From positions 22,307 through 86,306 of IMG/VR virus record IMGVR_UViG_3300042332_001215: 64,000 nucleotides of DNA. One strand, written 5' to 3'. Shown piece by piece: positions 4,924 to 40,979 of the stretch. Made by a program: the position numbers and the translations under genes. Every line of letters starts with the position of its first letter. The stretch's first letter is position 1. The stretch comes from a virus. The notes below the pieces were generated by a model. That model was not told the origin of the DNA, made no database searches, and saw only the letters and a program-made list of their open reading frames with translations.

Positions 4924-4931
4924 TATTTATG
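4924..4931 (-). promoter_or_regulatory. T4-type late promoter CATAAATA
   Basis: The minus strand reads CATAAATA about 20 nt upstream of the ATG at 4903, inside the last codons of the upstream giant fibre gene. It matches the T4/cyanophage late consensus (TATAAATA or CATAAATA), read by sigma-gp55 with gp33 and the clamp. It would give the fibre genes 4903-to-1 their own late transcript. Confidence 0.5.
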
Positions 4932-22500: not shown

Positions 22501-25500
22501 CTTAGAGTTTGCAATAGCAAAGGTATCACTAATGAATACGCTTTGGATGTTAGCTCTATCAGTAACACTAAGCTTAGAAGTTGTGAAGAAATTAGATAGA
22601 CCCTTGAGGAATGCTTGAGCAGCAGAATTCTTCTTCTCTGATGCAGTTACATTGACAACAGCGTTAGAAATTCTATTTTCAATATTATGAAGAATTTCAT
22701 CAGTAGTTCCATTTGAATTTGTATCGGAATATGAAATAATTTCTAGGAAGTTAGATTCGGAGGACTTACGAACCTTAGGTACATTTAGAGTAAATGTTGA
22801 CTGACCACCTGCCTGTACAACTTGATTTCCTACATACTGGTCTCCGTTGGAGTTAGTACCAGTAGATGCAACGAAACCACCTCCATTCTCATAGCTTTGC
22901 AGAATGAACTGCTCATATCCTTTGAGTACTCTGGTTTGTAGATTTGGGAAGCCAGTTGAATAGTTACCAGAACCTAGACCGATGTATTCCCAGGTATGTG
23001 AAGATGCACGAAGAATAGATGGTCTGTATAGAGGTAGTTTCGGACACTTATCAAGTAGAGATTCTAAAGTTCTTCCAGCAATTGTATTTGCTCCAAATGA
23101 TTCTGCTTGAGGAGAAATTACAGGAATTCTTCTGGAATTAGTTCCATCATTAATACCAAATTGGTTGTTGGCAAATACTTCTTCTAGGCTTGGAGCAGGA
23201 GCACCTTCTCTTGGGCCATATACATATTTTCCATTACCATATACTGGAAGACCTTCCCATGAAGTATAGCCTCTATCATCCCAATAAGTTGTTGGGGCAA
23301 CATTAACTCTGCCAGCAGAATTGAGTTTTGTTGATACATTTTTATCAATACGAACATATCTTAGATCCAATGCTTCCACTAGTCTATGTACTGCTTCTGC
23401 AGTTACAGACAGCATTGATGGAACATCTGCAAATGGTTTTCTATGGACATAGCCCATTTGACCATTAGTTCCTAGTTCTAGGAAATAAACTGTAACTGGA
23501 GTTTCTGGATCGAATGCAGTATTAAAATCTGCAGCATTTGATCCAGTAGCTAGAGTAATGGTATTACCACTTACACTTTGAACTCTTGCAGTGTCTGTAA
23601 TTCCTGCATCTGCAGAAATATATTGTCCTGCTACAATATTAGATGGATCTGATACAACTAATTTATAAGTAGATCCATCTACAATCTTATTGGTTACAGT
23701 TTTTGCAATAAATGTTGATGGATTTGTTACATTGATCTTAAATTGTGTTCTACCACTTACAGTAGTTAAATTATAAATCCCATGAATATTATTGATTATA
23801 TCTCCACTATTTCCAGAAATTTGAATGGAAGAACCATCTTGTATGTTTGCAGTTACATCAGAATCTAATACTACAGTTACATCTATTCTTTCTGAAGTTG
23901 CACTACCTGCAGCGAATGTGCCAGATTCAAATTCGTCTTCATAGATTGTAAATGTAGTAGGAGATGGTACAGTAGAAATATCTCTATACCCATCAATATT
24001 TGAATTAGTTCCTCTTACATAAACTACTGAATCAGTAGTGTAACCATGGGACTGAGATGTAGTTACTGTTACTAGTTGAGTTTGAGTAGAATGTGAAATT
24101 GATTGAATTGTAATTTTTTTGTGAGTTGGATTAGCTGGAGTAATAGAGAAGATATTTGAAATCTTGGATACAAACTCTGCCTTGTTTGGAACAGATAAAT
24201 CCTTCGGTCTGAATCCATTTGCAATTTTCTCTACAAGAACTCTGGAATCCATTTGTGGTGGGTTCCAGATCTGTCTTACTCTATGACTTAAACCTTCCTC
24301 GTCAGTTGATGGATATAGGTAGTTAATGTTTGATGAAGATCTGAAGTTAATATTGTTATTATTAAATTCACTGATACTATCATACTTAGCATAGCTACCT
24401 CTTTGAATATTGATAGCTTTATTAAGATATGATCCCTCATACCAGTCCACAAACTTGTCAACATCAGCTCGGATAACAGTTAGGTAGTAAACACCATTCT
24501 TAGATCCTTTCTCCCAAGCCTGAACTTCTTCTACATCAAGAACACTAAATCTGTAATTAGTAAATGGAACTCCATCTAGACCATTAGATGGTCTAGTTCC
24601 TTTGATAATAAATCTCTTTTCAGGTGGCTTTGGAGTGACTGGACAATTCTTGTCAATTGTATACTCAACTCTCCAGATTAAATCACTTGGAGTAGAACCT
24701 CTAGAGTCTACATACTTTCTAGTTACAATTGGAGCTGGGAATGAAGTTGAATACTCAAGAACCTGAGTAGTTGCTGGGCCACTTACTACAGTAAGAGTTC
24801 CATCTGGTTCTGTTTGAGTGGTGGTTTTGAAGATATTCTTGGTAGTTGTTTTAAATAGGAAATTGAAAATGAAGTTTTTGGTATTTCCAAAAGAGTTATC
24901 TAGAATTAGATAGATTCCTCCATCATCAAAGAAATATCCTTGTCTCTCAGCGTTTGCAGTTCCTGTTTCTCCATTAGAGAGTTTTACAGTTGCACTATAA
25001 GTTGTTTGTCCACCAGATTCGTTATCTACAACTATTTGGATTGTGCAATTGTCTTTCTTGGTGGTGCCAGTTACAGAGTAATAATCCCTGAATAGTGCAA
25101 GATTTCCATTATTGTATAGGAAATATCTCTTAGTCTGTTGAGTTCCATTTAGATTATCTTTAGCAGAAATTTCTAGTTCTGGAATATCATCTTCAGAATT
25201 AATACTAGCAATATCTAGGTATAGTTTGAATTCAGTTTGCTGGTTGTTTACAAAATTATTTCTTGCTTCTGCAGAAAATTCAATATAGTTTAGTGATGGA
25301 TCAATTGGATATCCATTCTTTTGCCAAGTAGTTCTAGCATCAATGCCAGAAATTTCAAATGTTTGTAGAGAATTATCAATACCTCTTGGTGGAACAAGTG
25401 CGGTAATTCTACCTTGATTTGCTGGTTCAAATGATTCAAACTGATGGCCAACTGCTCTGAGTGAAATTTGACCGAAGTTTGAGTTTGAGTTGGTGATAGA

Positions 25501-27498
25501 CATGTCTCCACCAGACTCGGCAAGGAATTGGTCAGCATAACCAACTGCGAAAACAGAAACTACCTGAATGAATGCAGAATCAGTTGCTTTGATATGGAAG
25601 TGTCTGCACCCTTGCTTGTATTCTGCATCTGGGTCTGCATAAATTGGAAGCTGAGTTTTCTCTTCGCCAGTAGTTGGGTTTGTTGTTTGAGTAGCAACTC
25701 CATCTGCAGCTTTTGGTTGCCAGAAGCAATTGGAATCTCTTTGCAGAGAGATACCAGTAAACTGTGCAACAACCATGGACTTGAAGGACTTGGGCTGAAC
25801 CTTACTTCCATCAGCCCACATACCATTAAGACCAAGAACTGAACGAAGTGAACAGTTAAAGATGTATGGTGATGCAGAGTTTACCGTATCAATCTGAGTT
25901 CTTAATGTAGAATTACCTACAATTTCATATTCTTCTCTTCTAACCTGTCTTGGATCACCGTATGCAGTATCCCAAGCATCAATCTTGCTGTAATATGTCT
26001 CTAGTTCTCCTTCTTCAGTTCTCTGGTCTGCATATGTAAATGCAATTACTCTATGGTGAGAATAGTTTACTTGACCTTTATCATTATATTCGGACTGAGA
26101 TAGGACAGAGTGTGTTGGAACTCCGTTACTGAAGCTTGTATTCTTGAAAATTCCAGAATATGAACCTAGGGATCCTGCAGTTGCTTTAGCATCCTTAAAG
26201 GTCATCTGCCAGAAATAGCAACCACCAGTTACCTTAAAGATAGCAGTTGGCTCATATACTCCAAGAGTCTTCTTAATAAGAGAAGAATAATTTGAAGGAT
26301 TGTTGATAATTGTTGTAATAACTGCAGTTAGCTGATTTACTGCAGATGCGGCATCTGCACAATCTCCTACAGTGAAATCTACACCAGATGTAAAAGTAGT
26401 TCTGGAAATAGTGCCAGATCTTTGAGTAAATGTAAATCCTACTGGTTGAGTTGAAGGCCAATTGTAGAGTGCATTGATTGCAATGTTTCTTGCATATTCA
26501 AATGCTGCTACAGTTAGAGGCTTTTCATTTCCTGGTAAATTGATATTAGCAGTTCCATCAGTGTAGAACTGACCTGCATTATATGAATTAGCATTGCCGC
26601 CATTTCTAAGGTCAGCAATGATAGCATCTACAATATATCCGAGATCTCTAACACAAAGATCTTTCTTTTCTTGAGTTAGAGTTGCATAAATTGCACTTAC
26701 AGTAGAACCTGCTAGTGCAGCAGTAGATTGTTCTAGATATAGTCTGGTTTGCTCTTGAATATAACCACGATTCTTTTCAATCATGTTTGCAGAATCAAAC
26801 ATGATTTGAGTTAGTTTATAAGTTCCATCATTAATAATGGAACCATCATCTGAAGTTGTATTGGTTAGATTATAAACTGGCTTGGGTACATACTTTGGAC
26901 GAACTACGGTTTTTCTTAAATCGTAACCGATTACAGAAGTACCTCTAGGAATGATTACACCACCATTTCTTGGGTTAAATCTCCAAAGATTTGACTCAAA
27001 ATTATCACTACCAATTGGGTTGGTTAGTACATCATATCCTGGTCTGTTATCAATGGTGTAATCACCCGGCATTACTAGAACAGTAAATGCCTCAAACTTA
27101 TCGTTTGTATCACCAGAGACATAGCTTCTTCTTGCTGCTTCTAATAGAGCCCTCTCAATGGTCTTAAATGGTCTGTTTAGATTAGTACCATCGTTATCAG
27201 CAGCATCGGATGAGTTTGCATCTGACTGGTTTACATATAACGCAACATTTACTGCACCTGCTGCAGTAGAGTTAGTTACTGGAAGAAATGTTCCTGAGGA
27301 AAGACTTAGCTTTCCAGCTCCATCAATAGAAAGTCTTTTCTGACCTCCTGTAGCGATAGAAATTTCTCCACCTGAGCTAAGAATACCTGAATTGCTATCG
27401 TCAAAACCAATAGCAGGAGTTGCTGGATTATTATTACTATCAAACTTAATTACAACACCTTCCGCAATGCCACCAGATGTAATTCTAGTTAGAGCCAT
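13585..27498 (-). CDS. Giant virion structural protein (4,637 aa)
   Basis: A single uninterrupted 13.9-kb frame. The N-terminus (MALTRITSGGIAEGVVIKF, then GGQKRLSIDGAGKLSLSSG) resembles fibre-trimer starts. Residues ~90-170 (GTNLNRPFKTIERALLEAA, FTVLVMPGDYTIDN) have the 'shared start, P-F-x-T-I, PG-x-Y' signature of pectate-lyase-like beta-helices, and similar helical or Ig-like strand-turn sequence fills most of the chain. The last ~600 residues are unusually Trp/Tyr/Gly-rich (GYGPYGRLGWTGNFG, WSLWQWDWARQ, WWGGPGFWRS) and could be a binding head. Marine cyanomyoviruses encode very large virion proteins of this kind, usually without assigned function. A late TATAAATA site and an AAGG ribosome-binding site precede ATG 27498. 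Confidence 0.75.
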   Translation of the reverse strand: MALTRITSGGIAEGVVIKFDSNNNPATPAIGFDDSNSGILSSGGEISIATGGQKRLSIDGAGKLSLSSGTFLPVTNSTAAGAVNVALYVNQSDANSSDAADNDGTNLNRPFKTIERALLEAARRSYVSGDTNDKFEAFTVLVMPGDYTIDNRPGYDVLTNPIGSDNFESNLWRFNPRNGGVIIPRGTSVIGYDLRKTVVRPKYVPKPVYNLTNTTSDDGSIINDGTYKLTQIMFDSANMIEKNRGYIQEQTRLYLEQSTAALAGSTVSAIYATLTQEKKDLCVRDLGYIVDAIIADLRNGGNANSYNAGQFYTDGTANINLPGNEKPLTVAAFEYARNIAINALYNWPSTQPVGFTFTQRSGTISRTTFTSGVDFTVGDCADAASAVNQLTAVITTIINNPSNYSSLIKKTLGVYEPTAIFKVTGGCYFWQMTFKDAKATAGSLGSYSGIFKNTSFSNGVPTHSVLSQSEYNDKGQVNYSHHRVIAFTYADQRTEEGELETYYSKIDAWDTAYGDPRQVRREEYEIVGNSTLRTQIDTVNSASPYIFNCSLRSVLGLNGMWADGSKVQPKSFKSMVVAQFTGISLQRDSNCFWQPKAADGVATQTTNPTTGEEKTQLPIYADPDAEYKQGCRHFHIKATDSAFIQVVSVFAVGYADQFLAESGGDMSITNSNSNFGQISLRAVGHQFESFEPANQGRITALVPPRGIDNSLQTFEISGIDARTTWQKNGYPIDPSLNYIEFSAEARNNFVNNQQTEFKLYLDIASINSEDDIPELEISAKDNLNGTQQTKRYFLYNNGNLALFRDYYSVTGTTKKDNCTIQIVVDNESGGQTTYSATVKLSNGETGTANAERQGYFFDDGGIYLILDNSFGNTKNFIFNFLFKTTTKNIFKTTTQTEPDGTLTVVSGPATTQVLEYSTSFPAPIVTRKYVDSRGSTPSDLIWRVEYTIDKNCPVTPKPPEKRFIIKGTRPSNGLDGVPFTNYRFSVLDVEEVQAWEKGSKNGVYYLTVIRADVDKFVDWYEGSYLNKAINIQRGSYAKYDSISEFNNNNINFRSSSNINYLYPSTDEEGLSHRVRQIWNPPQMDSRVLVEKIANGFRPKDLSVPNKAEFVSKISNIFSITPANPTHKKITIQSISHSTQTQLVTVTTSQSHGYTTDSVVYVRGTNSNIDGYRDISTVPSPTTFTIYEDEFESGTFAAGSATSERIDVTVVLDSDVTANIQDGSSIQISGNSGDIINNIHGIYNLTTVSGRTQFKINVTNPSTFIAKTVTNKIVDGSTYKLVVSDPSNIVAGQYISADAGITDTARVQSVSGNTITLATGSNAADFNTAFDPETPVTVYFLELGTNGQMGYVHRKPFADVPSMLSVTAEAVHRLVEALDLRYVRIDKNVSTKLNSAGRVNVAPTTYWDDRGYTSWEGLPVYGNGKYVYGPREGAPAPSLEEVFANNQFGINDGTNSRRIPVISPQAESFGANTIAGRTLESLLDKCPKLPLYRPSILRASSHTWEYIGLGSGNYSTGFPNLQTRVLKGYEQFILQSYENGGGFVASTGTNSNGDQYVGNQVVQAGGQSTFTLNVPKVRKSSESNFLEIISYSDTNSNGTTDEILHNIENRISNAVVNVTASEKKNSAAQAFLKGLSNFFTTSKLSVTDRANIQSVFISDTFAIANSKIANGEKFPEGSPDGFGFTKGAKPEKTGFISTDTNDRLYVSPKFLDAWRLKRQLVSASNINLDNNRIYVSSLNRTALSTPDSGSTSSVGLTTSTSQIKVVDTVGIPSNGKIDIEMTMKAVSQDAYYVLNGARQYLNPSISITLEYDTIDYTNNTVTFKSNQNKLGSNTLSTYISNILPTGTHKAVVANWSSPFDYDPNRNGVVESNEGIVSDGVLFDSKFLKGTINNTFNISSTINETTPQIIPVNTASDFYNKLPDRGAVVLRYKVNTTVYYSTFVYYKNNGINAIRKVTGFSSDQQLSSSTYPNGTTIFFAGCSTSVTYADRWAAEGPFIPSTDQITEDVDLESATLFTPYEKPIPFVSTVNDEYINNNVPNPITSKALGINLQTRQAIKKFAPLTSFGQISQYCNKIGFTSSDEVELLFKPGYYKLNESDGSRHKFTPVIKINGSGIERTNEAYGKETANTSAGKIGGYSNDLTKRADSVNFYKTIHYTPQYVQRTDRLYITTDGYPQFNGGVKISNVNFLGLNEAITVNEILDSSYSSDPFIQRARRDVRKAWYVKKQTNFPTDGRLSFTANGTVAAGKAGISFKIRNDEVLTVAGVTNTATSSNARFIEFTFTSSNFTDATGTPSNLIKFGWLKEYVIPGTTLYFGADDQETKVLSRIYNKNESTGVETLTYTCALYTSDNDFKQNKAEDLVLPSNYSNSTDYTIKFANVDGDEFVTLVFNLGIYYRTQFMPSSYTLNGGGDKYGYDEQDFDTPEIFGVVAGYRRGTVNLVIDSNPTQPLDVGINQFTIILNQQKTSGTNTIRIANTDTNINNIRVGQKLSGSGIGFEALISDITTDGTNTTITIKNAKGTNINHTELIPSGTSITVTPKAEYPFATWYGRQSAAQFQYSSTQNEETAVSLPYFPNGFKSLFGKATTRFYLIEFVPEDIGNFDDNYNMGINSVILNYGLLTSGFDAETNFATDEAFIVAAKKNLNLLANADNPYRATTQSTDTINTTPAGLVNAVKVRGKKLTINWPHSYKSMRRKIATAHSPSIGNISTPFFEVDAVPGSNVPLWIQDTTIGAISPFNRQNNTYGGGYFGGLIKARGSSIRFIGNRIRGNISTNWSSLVFVGGDAYNTVTRILPSARRLNENQRFTYGHSVDFLQHEEGNYFERLPEEAPAKQLNVGKNDELFKYVSEYNPSGLNYLEPNYTADNKKVDYDYRVLPIKTIQRIPRLLDNGSLNSSVELKETELTANNIEYSSTTTGKSGWNLRYNDTQFAIAAGGSAGSAALPKKSLQFNYTDDSVVAQIFPNFTSIVKSDNKTTVYATVTKVTKTTSGATKIATIEYEGNLNFNGYTSTKPENVTDLSTVFAELSIKFSTQFIDSERYTYTGGATSRYQKAVANSASSYLILSADGNTNTIAQHSDVVVSKVGNGVANVSYGTERELVNSRTGTTNARIRFSTDSQGNITRMALISLGSGHQENDTLTLSGSGAIGTAVNGYSFKVNRTTSDDLSIFEAGEYLAVAPRNCFILNNINAGTISGIKSELQRAKMTYKPGSFIKYAGGSQIFYKVATSSTNQPYIGIYRYLNPNNKADIRTAIVVILEETTASPAYVSNQRFDLYDKENILDYWPTTGRITIGNLETCDYTLTSANDTYTLTLLRSNTKYYPSYVHDWEGLDITDSSDANVTVGDLQKTEIRLADPVDISANTFKRILPSLANSTSGLYNTTLVGGSYMDPYGNYTNKISVVEVPSGDVNSDFEKFDIGQIVTIPYRDLIFRDGYGDARYYGGYGPYSNITFEVTSAATAGSQEIVGKITSSATSPMNMNMEIVSGKVNVADNNFVLANHPYHTSDMVRITSTGTIPAGLTAGTDYYIIKNDYWSFRLATSLENAENGIAIDITSQGTGTHTINLQRVRIFWNLAWQPHMVASETAADTTVFNAINPLSTFRSKQGVDYITVGSTGISGITLYFDQALIGNIASGTKFKMVPGFTQERFHMAGIFKSRIIDVEKDSVNSKIKLYLAEELPFELTASADNTARHFGFLNINNGGWSFPRQNYSAYRTNNIKLGDGKYEIKLPNRSSRIKKGDILSYSYESGSSNLPTQNYIARAGEPFIYISDTSGLSVGDALSNYTLLTIPSGLSNATSIAIAGHGLQTGDEIFYVAGRDASNNLQQVTGLTHKTAYFVRSLSTGEFELYTNQTSAYDRTTANRVTVTNATFTNQRLVRNSISTASLVLDATDTAVYNSTSKRFTINGHGLTDKEAVTYRRLQQKTGVTDANDGKIYYAWVVPTNPNQFYLRSSLDNWPTSTATWDAGTGAADIIPSNVPDYMMLEVKTIIRSIDGSTLQLGRFNENNLSGSGQIEPTALRNDLGRRSPISISGNPDLKQVKSSIVSVSSADSDGYVTITLDTPNNILYTAHPTKQDFFSVSDVIVSHLSDRVKFGGPTLNTFLYSRNGGKLSFRDFSINNTWFGNYFGIAKGYGPYGRLGWTGNFGSKLDGSKTVGSASNGSLELSWNSQRNNSIWAVSSPVRPSWSLWQWDWARQVSNLQPILAEYHAVGYDITYNRWWNVPHLERDGWMFYNPVKHISRDSDSVYAFFNTSILRNRREWWGGPGFWRSGVGAYDIQNYRYPSPASTANEWWPTGGDRETATRIILGCDLQDFEIYNSGWPNWGKGNNTITSEQVRVKYVQHYRPCLVDNLLTTNTAYRHKDQLASGTPDTAITRMILSQSQFGSNSPVGFGDTTSQTAIGRKYIRVPNWFDVWQYMDVSCAIYDDQNRFIGHFADWFWGAPYGRKYDEALYIELMEVNTELPTNWTTAEFRVFHPAASILLSTVDSDEMQLDATTASGIRNGGKVFLSSTSGGSATTPYVLPPNQQNIVGNNGWSAQGTQSGGIPFNRHYNFAFRIDRRGYNNTTQLSTEGISKPIARNWFGYRIIKLRMGDLCNFEWSPMNLVVTKYNRKIHNEESVISNSNFSNLGVNTIYI

Positions 27499-31163: not shown

Positions 31164-32492
31164 TTAGAATGTTTCTCTAGTTTCTACGGAAATAGGATTA
31201 ATTTCATTGCCACCAAAAGAATCTCTAGTTAATGTTGCAATGGTTCTCAATTCAGTTCTATTTAGGATAGTATGCCTAATAGAATGTACTAGATACTTTC
31301 CACTTATTCTTTTATCTTCAACAACTTTATTTGTTTTATCTCTCTTGGGAGATGGAATAGAAACATTAATAACATTACCTGCTCTCAGTTTCAGATCTCC
31401 AGGAATAGCAACCTCCAGTTTATTATACTCCAAGAAATAATATCTGTATATAGATTTTTCAAAAGTCTTATTTACTTCATCAATATTATTTAAACTTTCA
31501 ATTTGAGATGATGACATTGGCTTCCAATTAAAAGTAGAAATAGTAGTAGGTCGGTATACTAATCTGGATGGGTTCTTTAAAAGATCTTCATTTGGAAATG
31601 GAGTCATATTTCCGAGATGAGTCATATCCTTCCAGTAGGTAGATGCATTTGTATTCCAATTCTGATAATTTCTATTATTGATATCCACATATAAAGCATT
31701 ATGAGAGAATGCACCATTCCTCAAGTCTTCAAAAATATCAAATGCTTTTGTTGAAGAATAATCCATGATTCTATAATTGTTAGAATCAGATCCTGTAGAA
31801 CTAGTATTTCCCTGAATAAATGTATACTTTGTATTCTTGTTTGGATATGGAGTTGTATCAAAGAGAACATCTAAAGATTTAAAATTATATCCATCTAGAG
31901 TTTCATAGAAAAGATATCCAACAGAATCTTTATACTTTGTTGATACAGATCTTCTAGACATCCATATAGCAGTATCAAATAATCTCCAATTCGTAACATA
32001 CATATCGAATGGATGTAGAGTGCTATCAACTCTACCTTCAAAAGTTTTATCGCTGATTAATTCTAGTTTTTCTTTTAGAAAATCTTCTGCTTTCTTTCCA
32101 TCTATTCTCTCACGAATTCTGGTATGTTCATTTATCAAAGCTTCTTTACTTACAGCATGAATGACATAGACCTGATTTTTTTCTTTCATCACTCTACCAT
32201 CAATCTTGTAGATGTAGAAGTTTAAATTGTAGTCTGCATAAGAAGTTGATATAATTAATTGAATTCTTTCCTGTCCAATTATAGGCAACTCTCCAATAAT
32301 ATTATTTCCAATATCTTGAATTACTAACTGACAATATAAACTTGTAGAAATAATACTTTCATTGATTGTAACTTCTTGTACTAATTGTTTTATATCAATA
32401 AACTTTCTATTGCCCGCAAGACCACCTTCGTCTTTTACGGGATACAATTTTACTTCTTTGAGAGAAAAATCTCCAGCAAAAAATTGATTCAT
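31164..32492 (-). CDS. Baseplate hub protein, gp27-like
   Basis: 442 aa. The N-terminal 150 residues (FIDIKQLVQEVTINESIISTSLYCQLVIQD, GQERIQLIIST) and the C-terminal block (VAIPGDLKLRAGNVINVSIPSP, RISGKYLVHSIRHTI) have the two tube-like beta-barrel layout of gp27/gpD hub proteins, which form the cylinder that holds gp5. Its neighbours are gp5 (through cp12) and the tape-measure-like genes, and TAATG coupling joins it to the upstream gene. The match is by domain layout and synteny rather than close sequence. Confidence 0.75.
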   Translation of the reverse strand: MNQFFAGDFSLKEVKLYPVKDEGGLAGNRKFIDIKQLVQEVTINESIISTSLYCQLVIQDIGNNIIGELPIIGQERIQLIISTSYADYNLNFYIYKIDGRVMKEKNQVYVIHAVSKEALINEHTRIRERIDGKKAEDFLKEKLELISDKTFEGRVDSTLHPFDMYVTNWRLFDTAIWMSRRSVSTKYKDSVGYLFYETLDGYNFKSLDVLFDTTPYPNKNTKYTFIQGNTSSTGSDSNNYRIMDYSSTKAFDIFEDLRNGAFSHNALYVDINNRNYQNWNTNASTYWKDMTHLGNMTPFPNEDLLKNPSRLVYRPTTISTFNWKPMSSSQIESLNNIDEVNKTFEKSIYRYYFLEYNKLEVAIPGDLKLRAGNVINVSIPSPKRDKTNKVVEDKRISGKYLVHSIRHTILNRTELRTIATLTRDSFGGNEINPISVETRETF

Positions 32493-35341
32493 TATAGTCT
32501 ACGCTGTCCTAAGTAAGATGAGCTATCTATGTGTGCAAATGATCCAACTGAATAGTCTGTCCTTTCTAGTGGAGTGACTACATTCAAATTGGAAATCATA
32601 GTATTTCCTTGGGGTATAATATATGTATCTGATAGAGCCACAGGAAGTTTGGATGCCTGAACAAAATCCATACTGCTTGAAGATAATTGTTCTGAATTAA
32701 CTTTTGGTGTAGATGGTAATAGAAGTTCCGCCAGCTGTTTTAATTGTGATCCAATATCAGTCCAAGATGGAGTGGAATCTTGTGTGGAAGTTTCTGCAGT
32801 TCTTGATTCTTGAGTTTGTGAAGGAGAATCTGATGGCCGAATTCCTTGTCCAACAAATTCAAAGTGGCCTCCATGATCTCTGGGACCACCATATGGAGCC
32901 CAATTCCAACCATACTTAGATCCATTTTTCTTTATCCATTCTTTGGAGGAATTATGAATATCCATTCCAATTCCATATAAATGTTTTGATCTAGTAGCAC
33001 CACCTTCACGGTTGTTTTTTGCGATACTTCTTTTGCTGCTTGCAATATCAGTTCCCTTAACTACTCCACCAGAATCTTTCATCATTTTTGCAAATGCAGA
33101 AGCAGCAGCTTGTGAAAACACTACTGGTCTACCTTGTTGATCTGATGCACCTTGAATTGTATATCCAGGTCCAGTATCGGGAACTCCCTGAGTTGCAACT
33201 ACTCCACCAGTTTGATATCTGTCTCTAAACCAGTTTCCTCCATCAGGTCTTCTTCTTCCACCTTTACCTTTATATCCAAGAAAATATTGAGCACCACCAA
33301 CAAACTTCTTTGCCGATTGAGATAAAGGACCATTTTTCTCAAAGTCTGCAAGAACTTGAGCAGCAACTTTAGGATTTCCAGCTTGGAATCTATTTGTTAG
33401 TTGTTGAATGCCATCTGGTTTTGCAGCCAAATCAAATAATTCCTTTTTAGTTAATCCAAGACCACCATATTTTGAATTTGCATTTTCATCCCCAGGGCTA
33501 CCGCCATGTAATGCTGCCGAATATGGAGTAAACTGTTCCTTGGCAGTAATTACTGCAGGAATCCCCCCACTTTGTCCTGCAGCCCTGTTTAAAATAACTT
33601 GATATACATCAGCAACATGCTGTGGTGCTGTAGCTTCCAGTGTTGCTAGATGGGCAGCAGCTCGTTTGTCTGCAGAAGATGCCTTAATAGCATCCAATTC
33701 TGCCGCAGTTAATGATTGATCTGCTCCAGCTCCTCCACCGCCGTCACCACCAGCTCCTCCACCAGCTCCTCCACCAGTATCGCCAGAACTAAAATCTAGA
33801 TTGATAAAATTGTTCAAGATATCTGCAAGAATTTCACGAACACTAGACCCACTGTTATATCTTTCTTTCTTTTCTTGCTCTTTTCTTTGAATAATATTCA
33901 GTGACAAATCGGATCCTATAATTTTATTTAATTCTTTATCAGTTGATTCAGATACCGATGAAGCTAATATTGAAGGTGACTTTCCAGATTGCTTAGCTAG
34001 ATCTGAAGTAAATGCATAATTAGTTTTTCCAAACTCTCTAGTATATGGAGATAGTAACTGTTGTGCAAATGGCCTAATTGCTATTCCAACTGGACCCATT
34101 GAATTGATCAGTGCATCTATTCCACCAATCATAGAAGACGCAATAATACCAAATGGAGCACTTAATATTCCACCATTGTAAATATGTCCAAGAGGAATTA
34201 CTGCCTCTGGTCCAGCCTCACCAATCAAAGCTCTAGTTGGTTTGGTGACAATACCACCAACTGCAAGTGCAGGTTCTTCTTTTTTGGAAACTGCACTCTT
34301 CATCCAATCATATAAATTTGAAGCTGCCCAATCTCCTACAATTCCACCCAAAGCTCCACCAACAATAGTTCCAGGACCAGGGAATACAGAACCAACAACT
34401 GCACCCAATCCCATTCCTAAAGTAGATCCAACAGTTTTGACAATTGCTTTGTCTATTGGATCACCTAATAATAAATTAATACCTAAATTGAGTAAAGGAC
34501 CTACTACAGGAATTCCAGCAACTGTCTTACTAGCTATTGCTTTTAATGGTCCACCTACAAGTTTTAATATTCCTCCAACTGCAGGTGCGGCAGCTTTAGC
34601 TAGAAACTTAAACCCTCCTTTACCAAATACTTTTAATACTGCTCGGACAAGTCCTTTAGCTAATCCTCTTTTAAAAATACTTGTAGTTTTAGTTAGACCT
34701 TGTGCAAGATTAGCAGCTCCTTCTTTAATGCCAGATTTTTTGAAGGCATTAAATATTTCTCCTATCTTGTCGCCATTTTTAATTACAAATTTTAAATCTT
34801 TAATTAATTTTAAAGGATTTAGTAAATATCGTAATCCAAAAAATCCTACAATAGCAGAAAATAGTCCGAGGATTCTTTCTAATATTGAACCTCCAAACAC
34901 CAGACTATGTACACCATTTAATAAATTATTAACTGAGCCAGTTGCAAACCAGTCTATAAATTTAAATACTCCAGATAAACCTTTGACTATAGCTTGAACT
35001 TTCTTTAAATTTTCAGGATCTCCTAGCCACATTAAAGCTTTCAATTTAATGAAAGTCATTAATAAATTTATTATTGTTGTAGACGCTACATCTTGACCCT
35101 TTTTAATTAGTTTAGATTCTCTGGGTTTTTTCTTTTTTGCTTCCTGATTTTTTTCCCTATCTAAAATTGTTTGCCTGGTGGAAAATTTATCTTTGGTTTC
35201 TTGATATTTCTTTTCTAATTTTAATCTATCTTTTTTAAACTTGAGTAGAGTTATTGACGCACTACGAATTTTGGTAAGCTCCTGAAGTCGCTTACCTTGA
35301 GTTAAAAATGCACCTGTTTTAATTGAAGTGAATGTCTGCAT
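32492..35341 (-). CDS. Tape-measure-like tail protein with two peptidoglycan-hydrolase domains
   Basis: 949 aa. Residues 1-70 are a charged coiled coil. About 80-330 is hydrophobic, Gly/Ala-rich tape-measure-like sequence, followed by the motif GGIVTKPTRALIGEAGPEAVIPLG. About 540-700 (VADVYQVILNRAAGQSG, AVITAKEQFTPY, then a Y-x-G-L-G-L segment) looks like a SleB/Hydrolase_2 cell-wall hydrolase. About 760-840 (EGGATRSKHLYGIGMDIH ... DHGGHFEF) has the His-x6-Asp and His-x-His zinc ligands of an M15 D-Ala-D-Ala carboxypeptidase-type peptidase. It shares its N-terminal half with the next gene (WLGDPENLKKVQ; FKFIDW; RYLLNPLKLIKDLK). Likely a tail-tip or hub protein that locally opens the host wall at injection. 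Confidence 0.75.
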   Translation of the reverse strand: MQTFTSIKTGAFLTQGKRLQELTKIRSASITLLKFKKDRLKLEKKYQETKDKFSTRQTILDREKNQEAKKKKPRESKLIKKGQDVASTTIINLLMTFIKLKALMWLGDPENLKKVQAIVKGLSGVFKFIDWFATGSVNNLLNGVHSLVFGGSILERILGLFSAIVGFFGLRYLLNPLKLIKDLKFVIKNGDKIGEIFNAFKKSGIKEGAANLAQGLTKTTSIFKRGLAKGLVRAVLKVFGKGGFKFLAKAAAPAVGGILKLVGGPLKAIASKTVAGIPVVGPLLNLGINLLLGDPIDKAIVKTVGSTLGMGLGAVVGSVFPGPGTIVGGALGGIVGDWAASNLYDWMKSAVSKKEEPALAVGGIVTKPTRALIGEAGPEAVIPLGHIYNGGILSAPFGIIASSMIGGIDALINSMGPVGIAIRPFAQQLLSPYTREFGKTNYAFTSDLAKQSGKSPSILASSVSESTDKELNKIIGSDLSLNIIQRKEQEKKERYNSGSSVREILADILNNFINLDFSSGDTGGGAGGGAGGDGGGGAGADQSLTAAELDAIKASSADKRAAAHLATLEATAPQHVADVYQVILNRAAGQSGGIPAVITAKEQFTPYSAALHGGSPGDENANSKYGGLGLTKKELFDLAAKPDGIQQLTNRFQAGNPKVAAQVLADFEKNGPLSQSAKKFVGGAQYFLGYKGKGGRRRPDGGNWFRDRYQTGGVVATQGVPDTGPGYTIQGASDQQGRPVVFSQAAASAFAKMMKDSGGVVKGTDIASSKRSIAKNNREGGATRSKHLYGIGMDIHNSSKEWIKKNGSKYGWNWAPYGGPRDHGGHFEFVGQGIRPSDSPSQTQESRTAETSTQDSTPSWTDIGSQLKQLAELLLPSTPKVNSEQLSSSSMDFVQASKLPVALSDTYIIPQGNTMISNLNVVTPLERTDYSVGSFAHIDSSSYLGQRRL

Positions 35342-35342
35342 T

Positions 35343-38300
35343 TTATGGTGCTAGTGGATAGGTTGCTAGTGGAATTGGTGGAGTTGTTCCTCCCAATGTT
35401 TGTGACATTGGTTGAGTTGATGATTCAGTTATAGTTTTGTTTGGAGAAGGTAATGTAATTACATTACCACCAGTAGATCCAGCAGATCTGCGTTGAGCTT
35501 GAATATTTGAATTTTCTTTTTGTGCTGCCTGTAATTGTTGAGATCTAGCTGGAACAGATCCAGTAACTTGTGCTGCTGGTAGTTGTGTAGGAGCTGGAGC
35601 TGGAGCTGGAGTTGCAGAAGCTCCAGTCAACATTTTAGTTAAGTCTGCAAGATGGGGAATTATTGATGTCAAAGTAGGTTCTGATGTAGAGCCTGAAGAT
35701 GATGATGATGTCGATGTATCCGCTCCAGGTCCTACTTCCCCAGATGCACCTAAACGAATTCCAGCAGCAAATGTTTGGCCTCCAGAACTTGTGTACATAC
35801 TAGCTTTTCTAAATCCAGCAGTTCTACCATGATGCCATAAATCATTTCCTTCTCCTTTAATTCCTACATGAGTAATAGCACCTGCAGGATATCCATTTCC
35901 ACCTTTCCACAAAACAACATCTCCAGCTTGAAGATTGGATGCTTGTTTAACCACTGCTCCCATATCACTCCCAGCAAAAGAAGCTGCATATCTTACTCCG
36001 TTATATTTTGTTCCCTCAGAATCTAGGTCTCCTTTCTGAGTAACTTTTCCTGCAGCAGGATGTCCAGCAGCTCTCAATGCAGCTCTAGTTGTTACTGCAC
36101 ACATGTCTCCCTGACCTTTACCCATACCAACTATTTTTTTAGCACCTTCTAATATCGCAGCTCCTCCAATTTGAAACTTTGTTCTTGGTCTTCCATCTCC
36201 ACTAGCTTTATTTTCGTTCCTTGTAATTTGAGACATTTTTGAAGAACCAAATCTAGGGAACATTCCAAAATTAATTTTATCTAATTCTTTTGCTCCCCCC
36301 ATACCTGCAACTGCATTTCTATTCAATACATATTCATTATTTTCCAATACTGCAGGATACTTGTCTCCAATCCCAGAACCATGTACATTCCCTCCACCAA
36401 TAATAAACTTTGCAGGTTCCCCATATTTTCCATTCTGTGGAGTCTCCCATGCATCCTTTGTATCAGTTCCCCTTCCACTCACTCCTTTAGATTTTAAAAT
36501 CTTATTCATCTGATAATTATACATTCCAACTGCAGTTTGATCTCCACCAAACATTCCCTTCAGAATTTTGACCTCTCCACTTGAAGGTATTCTAACTAAT
36601 GTGCCACCTAGAGTTTTAGAATCAAATAATCTGTTTGTAGTAATGTCAGTTAATGGATCTCCTGGTTTTTCCCATCTAAATACATCTCCATGAGAATTAT
36701 ACCAGTATTTCTTGTTTCCGTTGATGACTGGTTTTAATCCTGCCCCTGGAGAATGTTCTTCTATAGTTCCCCCTCCACGAGTATTTGATACTACTTGAGT
36801 AGTTCCTTGAACTCCCTTGAGAGTTCCATCTTCTCTAAATCCACCTACTTTTCCAATAGATTGTTTTGCAGTATCTACTGGTGCAGCTGCTCCGTTTCCA
36901 TTTCCAGATGCAGAAGGAGAACCAGTGGCTCCAGGATTTCCAGATGCAGCAGGTGAAGTATTAGTTGATTGAGTATTACTTGAAGCATTCTTGCTAATTA
37001 ATGCACTTAGAATATCTCCAAGTAATCCTCTAACAGAAGTATCTCCAGATGGTTTAAACTCATCAGCTTTTGATTTTGTAATTTTTGGTTCTTCCATTCC
37101 AAATACTTCTTTCACTGCAGACATTCCTTGCCCCACAGATTTAACTGCAGTTTCAGCAAAATTTGTCATTCCTTTTACCAGTGAGGGAGGAATACCAAAC
37201 ATTGAAGCCACATTAGAAATCAATGGCATCAGCATGGGGCCAATCCCAGGAATTTTAGATACACTGGAAGATATTAAAGCTACAATTCCAGCACCTACAA
37301 TTTTAAATGGAAGAGTAAGTAATTTTATAAAACTTGGAATTTGTTTATCTACTCGACCTTTAAACTCATTAACTCCAAAAGATCCAAGTTTATCTAATGG
37401 AAGAATAGCTTCTGGTCCGGCTTCCCCAACAATAGCTTCAGTTGGTTTAGTAACAATTCCTCCCTTTGCAAGCATTGGAAGACCTTGATCCTTTGCAATA
37501 TCTCTTCCAATTAAAGCTGCATCAATTCCAAGAGATGCCGCAGTTCCCCATCCAGGAACTAATGATGCAACTCCTGATAATACTTCTCCACCAGCACCAA
37601 GCCAATCTCCTTTGGATGCTCGATCAGCTGCAAAAAATGCACTTGAAACTGCACCAATTACAGGAAGTGCTTTTAATAAAGATTTACCAGTAATCTTAGC
37701 TCCTCCTTTAGCAGCAGCTCCAGCACCTCTAACAGCAGCACCAGCACCTTCAGTAGCAGCTCCAGCACCTCTAGCAGCAGCTCCCGCACCTCTAGCAGCA
37801 GCTCCAGCACCCTCAGTAGCAGCCCCAGCGCCTTCAGCAGCAGCTCCAGCACCTGCTGAAATCTGTCTACCAGCTTGAGATAAAGCCTCATCTGCAGCTT
37901 CTCCTGCTGCCTTAGGAATCAAATTAGAAAAGAAATTAATTACACCATTAATTGCGTTTGGAATTACCTTTGTAAAAAGGTTTCCAATCATTTTAATATC
38001 TGAAATAATTTTAGTTGGATTCAGTAACCATTTTAAAGTGAAGAATCCAACTACAGCTTCAAGAAATCCAAATACTCTAGTTACACCTTCTCCGCCAACT
38101 AGTTTAGATAATCCACTAAACAATTTATCAATTCCAAACCCAACTATGGCATTTAGAAATTTAAATATATTCCCAAAAAGATTGACAAAATCTTGAATTT
38201 TTTTTACATTCTCTGGATTTCCTGCCCACTCAAGAAATTTATATGCAATGAATGTTTTTATTAAGCCTTGGAAAAAATTTCCTATGCCTTCAAGAGTTTT

Positions 38301-38654
38301 AGCCCCTTGCTTAACTATAGGATTTTTTGATTCATTTTTTCTATTTCTATCTGGTCTTCTTTCTTGCTGAGCTTCTTCATCTCTTGCCTGCTTTTTCTGT
38401 TCAGACAAAACAAATTCTTTGATGGAATCTGTGACCATCTCGTAATGTCTTTTCTCAAGAGTAACGAGAGTTTCAAGTGCTCTTCTAATATAACTTAATT
38501 CTTTTACTTCTTTAATTGCAGTTGCTTTTTCAGCAACCTCACTCCTTAGTGGTTTTCTTGCACCAGAAACAGTCCCACCAAACTTAGTTGGGTCTACGAA
38601 AGATGATACTTTCTGTGTGGGAGATTTCTTTAAACTAAAGAGTGAGATTGCCAT
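35343..38654 (-). CDS. Tape-measure-like tail protein with C-terminal NlpC/P60-CHAP-type domain
   Basis: 1,103 aa, paralogue of the downstream gene: EWAGNPENVKKIQDFV, FKFLNAIVGFG, KWLLNPTKIISDIK and GGIVTKPTEAIVGEAGPEAILPL align with it. About 265-310 is a heptad Ala repeat (GAGAAAE/TEGAGAA, seven copies). Around 750-800 is a second motif, GSGIGDKYPAVLENNEYVLNRNA, seen in phage tail proteins. About 860-980 (GQGDMCAVTTRAALRAAG ... LQAGDVVLWKGG ... ITHVGIKGEGNDLWHHGR) is a papain-like NlpC/P60-CHAP endopeptidase with Cys and His visible. The C-terminus is Pro/Ala-rich. It lies directly behind the gp26/gp51 frameshift pair, as tape measures do behind G/GT chaperones in other tailed phages. Confidence 0.75.
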   Translation of the reverse strand: MAISLFSLKKSPTQKVSSFVDPTKFGGTVSGARKPLRSEVAEKATAIKEVKELSYIRRALETLVTLEKRHYEMVTDSIKEFVLSEQKKQARDEEAQQERRPDRNRKNESKNPIVKQGAKTLEGIGNFFQGLIKTFIAYKFLEWAGNPENVKKIQDFVNLFGNIFKFLNAIVGFGIDKLFSGLSKLVGGEGVTRVFGFLEAVVGFFTLKWLLNPTKIISDIKMIGNLFTKVIPNAINGVINFFSNLIPKAAGEAADEALSQAGRQISAGAGAAAEGAGAATEGAGAAARGAGAAARGAGAATEGAGAAVRGAGAAAKGGAKITGKSLLKALPVIGAVSSAFFAADRASKGDWLGAGGEVLSGVASLVPGWGTAASLGIDAALIGRDIAKDQGLPMLAKGGIVTKPTEAIVGEAGPEAILPLDKLGSFGVNEFKGRVDKQIPSFIKLLTLPFKIVGAGIVALISSSVSKIPGIGPMLMPLISNVASMFGIPPSLVKGMTNFAETAVKSVGQGMSAVKEVFGMEEPKITKSKADEFKPSGDTSVRGLLGDILSALISKNASSNTQSTNTSPAASGNPGATGSPSASGNGNGAAAPVDTAKQSIGKVGGFREDGTLKGVQGTTQVVSNTRGGGTIEEHSPGAGLKPVINGNKKYWYNSHGDVFRWEKPGDPLTDITTNRLFDSKTLGGTLVRIPSSGEVKILKGMFGGDQTAVGMYNYQMNKILKSKGVSGRGTDTKDAWETPQNGKYGEPAKFIIGGGNVHGSGIGDKYPAVLENNEYVLNRNAVAGMGGAKELDKINFGMFPRFGSSKMSQITRNENKASGDGRPRTKFQIGGAAILEGAKKIVGMGKGQGDMCAVTTRAALRAAGHPAAGKVTQKGDLDSEGTKYNGVRYAASFAGSDMGAVVKQASNLQAGDVVLWKGGNGYPAGAITHVGIKGEGNDLWHHGRTAGFRKASMYTSSGGQTFAAGIRLGASGEVGPGADTSTSSSSSGSTSEPTLTSIIPHLADLTKMLTGASATPAPAPAPTQLPAAQVTGSVPARSQQLQAAQKENSNIQAQRRSAGSTGGNVITLPSPNKTITESSTQPMSQTLGGTTPPIPLATYPLAP

Positions 38655-38657
38655 TTA

Positions 38658-38846
38658 TTAAAGCGGCTGTGAAGTTTTATTCCGATTATTTTCTTCTTCA
38701 ATAAAGTCAATTAACATTTGAATGTAAATATCTCGTTCCCAAGGAAGCATTATTTCAACCTCAGTCAATGACCACTTATGGTGTTGCAATAATATAAAGT
38801 TAGTCCGAAAATAATTTTCTAGCGTTTGGTGAGCTAGAGCTATGCG
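38658..38846 (-). CDS. 51: gp51-like frame, probably made only as a gp26-gp51 frameshift fusion
   Basis: A 62-codon frame, in the -1 frame of the gp26 gene, from the slippery site to TAA 38658. It encodes R-I-A-L-A-H-Q-T-L-E-N-Y-F, then HHKWSLTEVEIMLPWERD and IQMLIDFIEEENNRN. The L-P-W-E-R-D-I-Y and E-E-E-N pattern resembles the short gp51 baseplate-hub catalyst found after gp26 in T4-like phages. No ATG or GTG exists in frame before the conserved block; the first ATG is at codon 33, inside it. A T TTT TTC heptamer in the gp26 frame lies at the right place for a -1 shift. The next gene starts 3 bp after its stop. Confidence 0.72.
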   Translation of the reverse strand, partial: RIALAHQTLENYFRTNFILLQHHKWSLTEVEIMLPWERDIYIQMLIDFIEEENNRNKTSQPL

Positions 38847-39550
38847 AAAAAAGATGCAAGACCCTCAATAACAACTTCATTTTCCTTCTTTGTATTTGGA
38901 TTCATAATAGTTACAGTATGACTCAGTTTAGGCATAGTCTCAAAGAACTTCTGAACTTTCAAGAATTGACTGGTATCAAGACTATCCAAAAATTCATCAA
39001 TCTCTTTTTTACTAAAGCTCTTAACTTCAAATACATCTTCGCCTTCAATAACTTGATCAATGCAGGAAGTAGCAAGATCAAATACATCTTCAGATTTCAT
39101 GTTTCCAGTAAAATTATTCTGGACAAACATTTCCATACTTGGATATTTCATAACCAAAGAAATAGAATCAGTAAGTGAAATAATTCTTTCATGATCATCT
39201 GACTTCTTAATTTGAATATCTTCAACATTAAGAGTAACTGGAACTGCAGTCTCACCATCATCTGGACAAGTAATATTCAGTTCGATTTCTTCCCCAACTG
39301 ATTTAGCACGAATATTCAGAAACAAATATTCAATATCAAAAACAGCTAGGTCATCAACTTTTAATTTAGTTTGAATGCAATTTTTCAAAATAGCTTTGAC
39401 TGCATTGATCATCTGTTTTTCATCTTCAGATTCCATAGCAAGGAGAAGAATTTTTTCTTCTTTAACTAGGAATGGACGATACTTAATTTTTTGACCAGTT
39501 GAAGGAAGTTCCAACTCATATGTCGGTGCAACTAATTTAGGTAAAGGCAT
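38840..39550 (-). CDS. 26: Baseplate hub protein gp26-like (tail-assembly-chaperone type)
   Basis: 236 aa. MPLPKLVAPTYELELPSTGQ, KYRPFLVKEEKILLLAMES, then DLAVFDIEYLFLNIRAKSVGE: the T4 gp26 family layout. In T4 it is a hub-assembly protein. The C-terminus ...EGLASFFA ends at TAG 38840. Codons TCT-TTT-TTC just before the stop form a slippery heptamer that lets ribosomes enter the gp51 frame. The order gp26, gp51 frame, tape-measure-like gene is like G, GT, H in lambda. The N-terminal 60 residues, a strand pair then helices, also fit a tail-assembly chaperone fold; that is inference. Confidence 0.85.
   Translation of the reverse strand: MPLPKLVAPTYELELPSTGQKIKYRPFLVKEEKILLLAMESEDEKQMINAVKAILKNCIQTKLKVDDLAVFDIEYLFLNIRAKSVGEEIELNITCPDDGETAVPVTLNVEDIQIKKSDDHERIISLTDSISLVMKYPSMEMFVQNNFTGNMKSEDVFDLATSCIDQVIEGEDVFEVKSFSKKEIDEFLDSLDTSQFLKVQKFFETMPKLSHTVTIMNPNTKKENEVVIEGLASFFA
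38846..38852 (-). promoter_or_regulatory. Probable programmed -1 ribosomal frameshift site (T TTT TTC)
   Basis: In the gp26 reading frame the minus strand reads ...GCA TCT TTT TTC GCA TAG. The seven bases T-TTT-TTC fit the X-XXY-YYZ rule exactly and lie two codons before the gp26 stop. A -1 shift continues as CGC ATA GCT CTA and stays open for 62 codons. Confidence 0.72.
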
Positions 39551-39582: not shown

Positions 39583-40419
39583 TTAATCAACAACAGTACG
39601 CCATTCACTACTAGCTTTAACACTTCCTCCAGTTTGAGATGCAGGGACTGCCATATCATATTCAAAGGTAACTTGAATTTTGACTAATTGAGAAGATCCA
39701 CTACTCAAAGGAATAGCAGAGATAGTAGTTGGAAATGCGTTTTTTAATCTTACCGAATACTTCTGGATTGCTTGACCAAAACCAGATTCTACAATATCAA
39801 ATTTAGAAAGGTCAGTTCCAGGAAAAATACTACTGATAGGAACTTGTTTAAATGCTTTTGGTTTATTTGGATCTGATAAATCTCTTATAGAATTTTGCTT
39901 ACTACTAGAAAATCTTTCCAATTTTATTACCACAATATCCAAAGTATAATCATCTTTATATCTTGTTCTTCCTAGGTCATTTATAGCATTAATGTTTGGA
40001 CCTCTTCTATTTACAGTATTAGATGATACTCCACTATAAATGTAGTTACCCCATGAATCAAATATCTGTCGTATCTCAGAATCTGCATCCGAGATAAAAG
40101 ACATTGTAATTTCATTATTTACAATTCCATATGCATATTTCATATTAGGACTATTTGTAATTCTAAAGTCTCCAGTAGAAATTGAATATCCTGGAATTGT
40201 ACACTCATCTGCATATAATCTTAGTAGATTAGTAAGAGAATAAGGTGAGTTTAAATTATTAGAATAGTTTCTAGTAAATACACTTGTCAAAAAACTAGAA
40301 CCTGAGTTTCCAATTAGAAACTGAACATCATAAAAATTTGTTAGCGAGAAGCCGTACTTTGCTACATGAGATCTAAATTGTTGAAAATTATTAATGTCTC
40401 TATTGATAATATCACTCAT
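39583..40419 (-). CDS. 54: Baseplate tail-tube initiator, gp54-like
   Basis: 278 aa from ATG 40419 (MSDIINRDINNFQQF), which has GGAG 9 nt upstream and overlaps the upstream stop by ATGA; an earlier in-frame ATG would overlap the upstream gene. The C-terminal half (RYKDDYTLDIVVIKLE; GTDLSKFDIVESGFGQ; YSVRLKNAFPTTIS; LVKIQVTFEYD) carries the tail-tube fold signature shared by gp19, gp48 and gp54: a central Y-x-V-x-F/L-x-N-x-(F/Y)-P strand and a final V-x-F-x-Y-D strand. gp54 nucleates tube polymerisation on the baseplate. It is next to gp4 and opposite gp48. Confidence 0.8.
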   Translation of the reverse strand: MSDIINRDINNFQQFRSHVAKYGFSLTNFYDVQFLIGNSGSSFLTSVFTRNYSNNLNSPYSLTNLLRLYADECTIPGYSISTGDFRITNSPNMKYAYGIVNNEITMSFISDADSEIRQIFDSWGNYIYSGVSSNTVNRRGPNINAINDLGRTRYKDDYTLDIVVIKLERFSSSKQNSIRDLSDPNKPKAFKQVPISSIFPGTDLSKFDIVESGFGQAIQKYSVRLKNAFPTTISAIPLSSGSSQLVKIQVTFEYDMAVPASQTGGSVKASSEWRTVVD

Positions 40420-40979
40420 CTTTTTGAATCTCCCCAAACATAGGATTTACTTACTTGCTTATATGATCCTCTTTGCCTACTAACAAAACTTTCCAATGGC
40501 AGGAAGATAGATTTTATCCAATCTTCACTATTTATTTTAAATAATGGTGTTTCAAGACCTTCATAAACATAATTATGAAAGCACTGTTTAGGAATTGTTG
40601 GTCGTCCATCTATAATACTTTGTAATACTTTATACCTAGTAGGATAATTTAGATAATGAAGATTTGCTCCGAAAAATTTTCGCCCCCCTTGTAACATATA
40701 GACTAAAGGAAACTCATCATAATACGGAAGTTTCTTTGCCCATGTTGCATTGTATTCAAACAGATATAGATTTCCTCCAGATGGAATTAAAGTTTCATCT
40801 AGAGTAACCAGAGTCTTATAGATATCATTTTTTCTCGCTATTTCAGCAACAGTATCCTTATACCAGCTATAAGATAATGTATAAAAACCTTTTTGTTTTT
40901 TCTTTGCTATCTCATCTACTTGTTCAAATATACTGAGATTTGAATCTCTTTTTGTTCTAGCCGATACTTCTCTTCTCAT
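40416..40979 (-). CDS. Conserved-type phage protein of unknown function (187 aa)
   Basis: Begins MRREVSARTKRDSNLSIF. Motifs visible: LYLFEYNATWAKKLPYYDEFPLVYML, then GANLHYLNYPTRYKVLQSI and a basic C-terminus (GSYKQVSKSYVWGDSKR). I believe this pattern recurs in T4-like cyanophages but cannot name a T4 counterpart. It lies between gp4 and gp54 with 4-bp overlaps on both sides, so it is translated with them and is probably a head-tail or baseplate completion protein. A DNA-end or neck function is possible but not shown. Confidence 0.65.
   Translation of the reverse strand: MRREVSARTKRDSNLSIFEQVDEIAKKKQKGFYTLSYSWYKDTVAEIARKNDIYKTLVTLDETLIPSGGNLYLFEYNATWAKKLPYYDEFPLVYMLQGGRKFFGANLHYLNYPTRYKVLQSIIDGRPTIPKQCFHNYVYEGLETPLFKINSEDWIKSIFLPLESFVSRQRGSYKQVSKSYVWGDSKR

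Follow-up and report, generated by a model that had tools for sequence, protein, structure and literature searches.

In phage lambda, a minor -1 frameshift at the end of the tail-assembly-chaperone gene generates the fusion gpGT alongside gpG, and these products act on the tape measure and the tail tube (PMC5009743). The same 2016 review describes the G-T frameshift as conserved except in T4 (PMC5009743), and the initial annotation of the locus studied here likewise noted that T4-type phages are usually described as lacking such a pair. That view is outdated by the work of Vladimirov, Gautam and Davidson (Virology 2022, 566:9-15), who identified tail-assembly chaperones in T4-like phages; their study, as summarised in later papers, describes some T4-like phages with a short gene plus a longer fused gene (PMC10885494) and poly-T slippery sequences in T4-like genes for the short form of the tail-assembly chaperone (TAC-N; PMC12846349). 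The locus lies in a 64,000-nucleotide (nt) stretch of the viral record IMGVR_UViG_3300042332_001215 (positions 22,307-86,306 of that record, an 86-kb fragment; hereafter the window), where gene gp26 is followed in the -1 frame by a gp51-like extension. Frameshifting is reportedly conserved in several T4-like groups, T4 itself being said to use genes 26 and 51.

We assign a probability of roughly 0.93, on sequence evidence, to the reading that a programmed -1 frameshift at the heptamer T TTT TTC yields a major short chaperone, gp26, and a minor long fusion, gp26-gp51. While decoding TCT TTT TTC, ribosomes would be held in place by a stem-loop ahead of them and, on the side already passed, by pairing of 16S rRNA with a Shine-Dalgarno (SD)-like GAGGG; a fraction would re-pair one base back, pass the TAG stop and extend the protein by 62 residues. 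If the products behave as lambda gpG/gpGT do, the tape-measure protein would be coated by the shared part and the tail tube recruited by the extension. The site, its conservation and the two stimulatory signals can be read directly from sequence; the slip, its rate and these binding roles are inferred. Tail-assembly-chaperone frameshifting in T4-like phages has already been reported and the mechanism is not new in kind; judged against Vladimirov et al. (2022) through the papers citing it, the apparent additions are how widely the heptamer is conserved, the pair of stimulatory signals, a split between one-gene and two-gene phages and an exception in the Ackermannviridae.

Conservation of the slippery heptamer

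On the minus strand, gp26 ends ...GAG GGT CTT GCA TCT TTT TTC GCA TAG, which places the heptamer in frame (38852-38846) two codons ahead of the stop, just as the initial annotation had described. Translation also bore out its open -1 frame: the 62 codons gained by the slip encode RIALAHQTLENYFRTNFILLQHHKWSLTEVEIMLPWERDIYIQMLIDFIEEENNRNKTSQPL, contain LPWERDIY and end at a TAA (38660-38658), giving the predicted gp26-gp51 junction peptide ...SFFRIALAHQTL.... In a profile search, the PF12322 match spans residues 9-236 of the 236 in gp26; the extension matches both phrog_634 ('baseplate hub assembly catalyst'; Table 1) and the C-terminal part of the phrog_150 profile.

TTTTTTC occurs in the AT-rich window at chance level (37 observed versus 36 expected), so that the case against a chance heptamer rests on its conservation in relatives. 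The spaced pattern GAGGG-N7-11-TTTTTTC is found a single time in the window, at the gp26 end (0.07 expected). We surveyed 257 loci, drawn from IMG/VR and from phage records, at which the end of a gp26-type gene could be read; 16 of them lack an in-frame T TTT TTN, namely 12 T4-type loci, three of Ackermannviridae type (Kuja, CRW-SP2 and D495) and locus L157. Setting aside the T4-type and Ackermannviridae-type loci but retaining L157 leaves 242 comparable loci, of which 241 carry T TTT TT(C/T/G) in frame where gp26 ends; in L157, the sole one without it, the gp26 frame stops early, probably through an indel. The 241 loci form 168, 63 and 23 clusters at 90, 70 and 50% identity, respectively, the 168 clusters comprising 160 with TTTTTTC, seven with TTTTTTT and one with TTTTTTG, and the -1 frame is open in all 241 (three of them cut by contig ends). 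Carriers include Kyanoviridae (S-PM2, P-SSM2, S-WAM1, S-BM3 and Pelagibacter phage Mosig), Straboviridae outside the T4 group (Vibrio ValKK3 and Aeromonas AS-zj), Emdodecavirus, Pootjesviridae, Menderavirus and Busanvirus; both the heptamer and the -1 frame are kept across distant families. Elsewhere within gp26 genes, FF is coded T TTT TTY in just 2 of 153 cases; this codon usage, together with the conservation across relatives, rules out a chance heptamer. A sequencing error that splits a single gene has nothing in its favour beyond the split itself and was rejected as practically negligible, the same split with the same heptamer recurring in 241 loci.

Signals flanking the heptamer and probable passage across the gp26 stop

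Pairing to the anti-SD sequence was best in the 12-nt segment beginning 18 nt before the heptamer (mean -6.6 kcal/mol, 63 loci), most other 12-nt segments lying between +1 and -3 kcal/mol. Glu-Gly pairs upstream of the heptamer use GAG in 117 of 146 instances, compared with a background of 31% across these genes; with clustering at 70% identity the count is 33 of 45 (p 2e-8). Downstream, 45-nt segments that begin 9 nt from the first base of the heptamer are more stably folded than their synonymous shuffles (mean z -1.58, t -7.1, 63 loci), an excess of structure that is strongest just past the heptamer, absent at +36 to +45 and seen only in weaker form further downstream. The p-values for these signals ignore shared ancestry, an effect that clustering only reduces. 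No shared register for the downstream hairpin was found among the loci, the stems lying at differing offsets; for this reason synonymous-shuffle energies were used and pair covariation was not counted. By these measures, the SD-like GAGGG and the downstream RNA structure are selected beyond coding. Both elements act on ribosomes, which speaks against transcriptional slippage on the T run, whereby a mixed mRNA pool would give the same fusion. That explanation could draw on the run of six T's (seven in a few relatives), but six is short for polymerase slippage and the run is not lengthened in most relatives; we regard it as extremely unlikely.

The first start candidates in the window's -1 frame, counted from the gp26 stop, are TTG at +53, TTG at +74 and ATG at +92, all falling within the conserved gp51 domain; the ATG is codon 33, the position given for the first ATG in the initial annotation. 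In 10 of the 168 clusters, including those of this window and of Aeromonas phage AS-zj, no ATG, GTG or TTG occurs up to +50. An Arg between the slip site and any start is kept in 149 of 168 clusters, and among the 141 loci in which no start occurs before codon 6, -1 codon 5, ahead of any start, specifies a small residue (A, G, S, V, C or T) in 138. The gp26 gene terminates with TAG in 107 of 156 cases and the -1 frame in 26 of 167, as is needed for an Ala/Gly codon in the -1 frame, the G of which comes from the TAG. The lack of early starts, the conserved codons before them and the TAG bias are expected if ribosomes read across the stop and not if gp51 starts anew.

Several observations weigh against a frameshift. 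Many relatives carry an ATG at +2, +5 or +14, and in these reinitiation may occur, so that the start-less gp51 frame described in the initial annotation holds for the window and several relatives but not for the many in which a start is possible. Extended to the whole family, this would make gp51 a small protein in its own right, translated by termination-reinitiation from a codon that overlaps or just follows the gp26 stop, in line with the annotation of gp51 as a separate gene in database records. We judge this to be very unlikely: the window and nine other clusters offer no start up to +50, codons upstream of possible starts are conserved in the -1 frame, the +5 position encodes M in 82 and L in 78 of 168 clusters, i.e. 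a hydrophobic residue rather than a start, and the heptamer, SD-like element and stem-loop would be left unexplained. The window's own stem-loop is modest taken alone (z -1.2), and the Ackermannviridae (L016, L261-L265, L013 and L014) keep a gp51-like -1 frame without the canonical heptamer. In structural comparison, the HK97 chaperone 2OB9, the match of highest probability to the gp26 model among those listed by Foldseek against the PDB, was not significant (probability 0.44, E 3), and the same search with a T4 gp51-type model returned nothing significant.

GenBank records (L003, L005, L006, L008, L012 and others) either leave gp51 out or place its start further downstream, and none of those fetched joins it to gp26; database records would thus misplace or omit the gp51 start.

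One gene or two in T4-like phages

Residues 1-201 of T4 gp51 match PF12322 (E 4e-52), making T4 gp51 a paralogue of gp26, and residues 200-244 align with the window's -1 extension (hhalign E 5e-6) in an alignment that begins at the junction, FKLLVNPDEIF... against FRIALAHQTLENYF.... For T4 gp26, the match is to the short form (E 2e-17). The initial annotation, which took the extension to be gp51-like, needs correcting here: T4 gp51 corresponds to the whole fusion and not just to its C-terminal part. Judging by these matches, T4 encodes the short and long forms as two genes and the window virus has one gene with a slip site. Whole-record searches found one PF12322 gene in each of 11 complete heptamer records (S-PM2, P-SSM2, S-WAM1, S-BM3, Mosig, phiN3, YB07, ACP17, ValKK3, AS-zj and RHph_I1_9) and two, with no heptamer, in T4 and four relatives; the window's own 86-kb record has one. 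In T4-group gp26 genes the heptamer is gone, FF being coded TTC TTT or lost. In a tree with long branches and an unknown root, T4-type gp26 sequences make up one clade and T4-type gp51 sequences another, and the two clades group with each other (95/84), which is compatible with one duplication in that lineage. The division between a slippery site and a duplicated gene would explain why T4 was long listed as the exception.

T4-type gp26 proteins (L256-L260 and L001) end FFKVL, FIRIL or FFELL. These endings are similar to the opening residues of the -1 extension (FFRIA, FFRVS), as though a stop codon had been introduced directly after an old slip site. In one T4-type record (L259, 3001-3746) the length of the gp51 match is not a multiple of three and stops lie in frame, owing either to a sequencing indel or to a real frame break.

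T4 gp51 is needed for assembly yet absent from the final particle (PMC3004832, which cites Snustad 1968, a title contrasting catalytic with stoichiometric functions), and a minor long form would fit such a catalytic role. The chaperone reading would give a concrete role to gp26 and gp51, which most records label 'baseplate hub' and 'assembly catalyst'.

The four Ackermannviridae searched carry one PF12322 gene each. Their gp26 ends GAA ATT TTC ATT TAA or similar; TAATG is present at the gp26 stop in LIMEstone1, CRW-SP2 and D495, and the -1 frame of FEC14, Menlow and KNP4 lacks any start before +32. In these phages the slip may take place at a weaker site, as a possible non-canonical frameshift, or a different route may be taken. 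We tentatively suggest, with rather less than even confidence, that one chaperone family has three solutions for making short and long forms: the heptamer with two stimulators (cyanophages, KVP40-type phages and others), gene duplication (T4-type phages) and, in the Ackermannviridae, a non-canonical T-rich site by the stop, several members being start-less.

Gene neighbourhood and comparison with known systems

Table 1. Coordinates of the gp26-gp51 locus and adjoining tail genes in the window.
Feature	Position	Strand	Details
gp26, short tail-assembly-chaperone form (TAC-N, 'G')	38840..39550	-	236 aa; PF12322 E 2e-75, phrog_150 E 6e-83
Slippery heptamer T TTT TTC, proposed -1 frameshift site	38846..38852	-	In frame near gp26 end; 241/242 comparable loci
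SD-like GAGGG, probable upstream stimulator	38862..38866	-	9 nt 5' of heptamer; anti-SD pairing peak and GAG codon bias
Stem-loop UCUAGC-9 nt-GCUAGA, probable downstream stimulator	38818..38838	-	7 nt 3' of heptamer; family-wide structure excess
-1 frame extension (gp51 domain, TAC-C, 'T')	38658..38855	-	62 codons post-slip; no start candidate before codon 20; phrog_634 E 1.4e-26
Predicted frameshift fusion gp26-gp51 (TAC-NC, 'GT')	38658..39550	-	297 aa; inferred; T4 gp51 has the same architecture in one frame
Tape-measure-like gene	35343..38654	-	1103 aa; start 3 nt past gp51 frame; weak tape-measure family matches
Tail tube-type protein directly upstream	39583..40437	-	PF23849 E 3e-12, phrog_45 E 4e-28

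The genes run in the order tail tube, gp26, gp51 frame and tape-measure-like gene (Table 1). The S-PM2 gene at the equivalent place, which is similar to the window's 1103-aa gene, matches the phrog_9570 tape measure (E 5e-21), and the tape-measure identity of the 1103-aa gene is moderately supported. BLASTP of T4 gp29 against the ValKK3 gene after gp51 showed no similarity. The predicted gp26 fold is confident (predicted local distance difference test, pLDDT, 88) and predicted gp26 structures from other phages match it strongly; a PDB sequence search with the gp26 profile gave no hits.

Two adjacent, related tape-measure-like genes lie on the minus strand at 35343-38654 and 32492-35341 (BLASTP E 8e-15), with weak matches to NlpC/P60 in the former and to an M15 peptidase in the latter. 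Very long open reading frames of 4637 and 2699 aa occupy 13585-27498 and 4927-13026 of the same strand.

The conserved heptamer and -1 frame, the start-less members, the T4 gp51 match and the gene order support the proposal of the initial annotation that gp26 and gp26-gp51 are equivalents of G and GT, and the standard tail-length machinery is very probably used by an abundant group of aquatic viruses. The layout of GAGGG, heptamer and stem-loop resembles that of dnaX-type bacterial -1 sites, which have an upstream SD-like element and a downstream structure. The gpE/gpE+E' pair of the contractile-tailed phage P2 likewise depends on a -1 frameshift at a heptamer rich in T (T TTT TTG), and no relationship of these proteins to the window genes was seen in the searches made. 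Lambda gpG/gpGT shares with the products predicted for the window a minor -1 fusion at the end of the chaperone gene, and lambda V-G-T-H has the same order as the window's tail tube, gp26/gp51 and tape-measure-like gene; unlike the window's T TTT TTC, the lambda site slips on GGGAAAG, and no sequence similarity between the proteins was shown. T4 gp26 and gp51 are homologous to the window's short form and to its predicted fusion, respectively, but are encoded by separate genes on opposite strands and have no slippery site.
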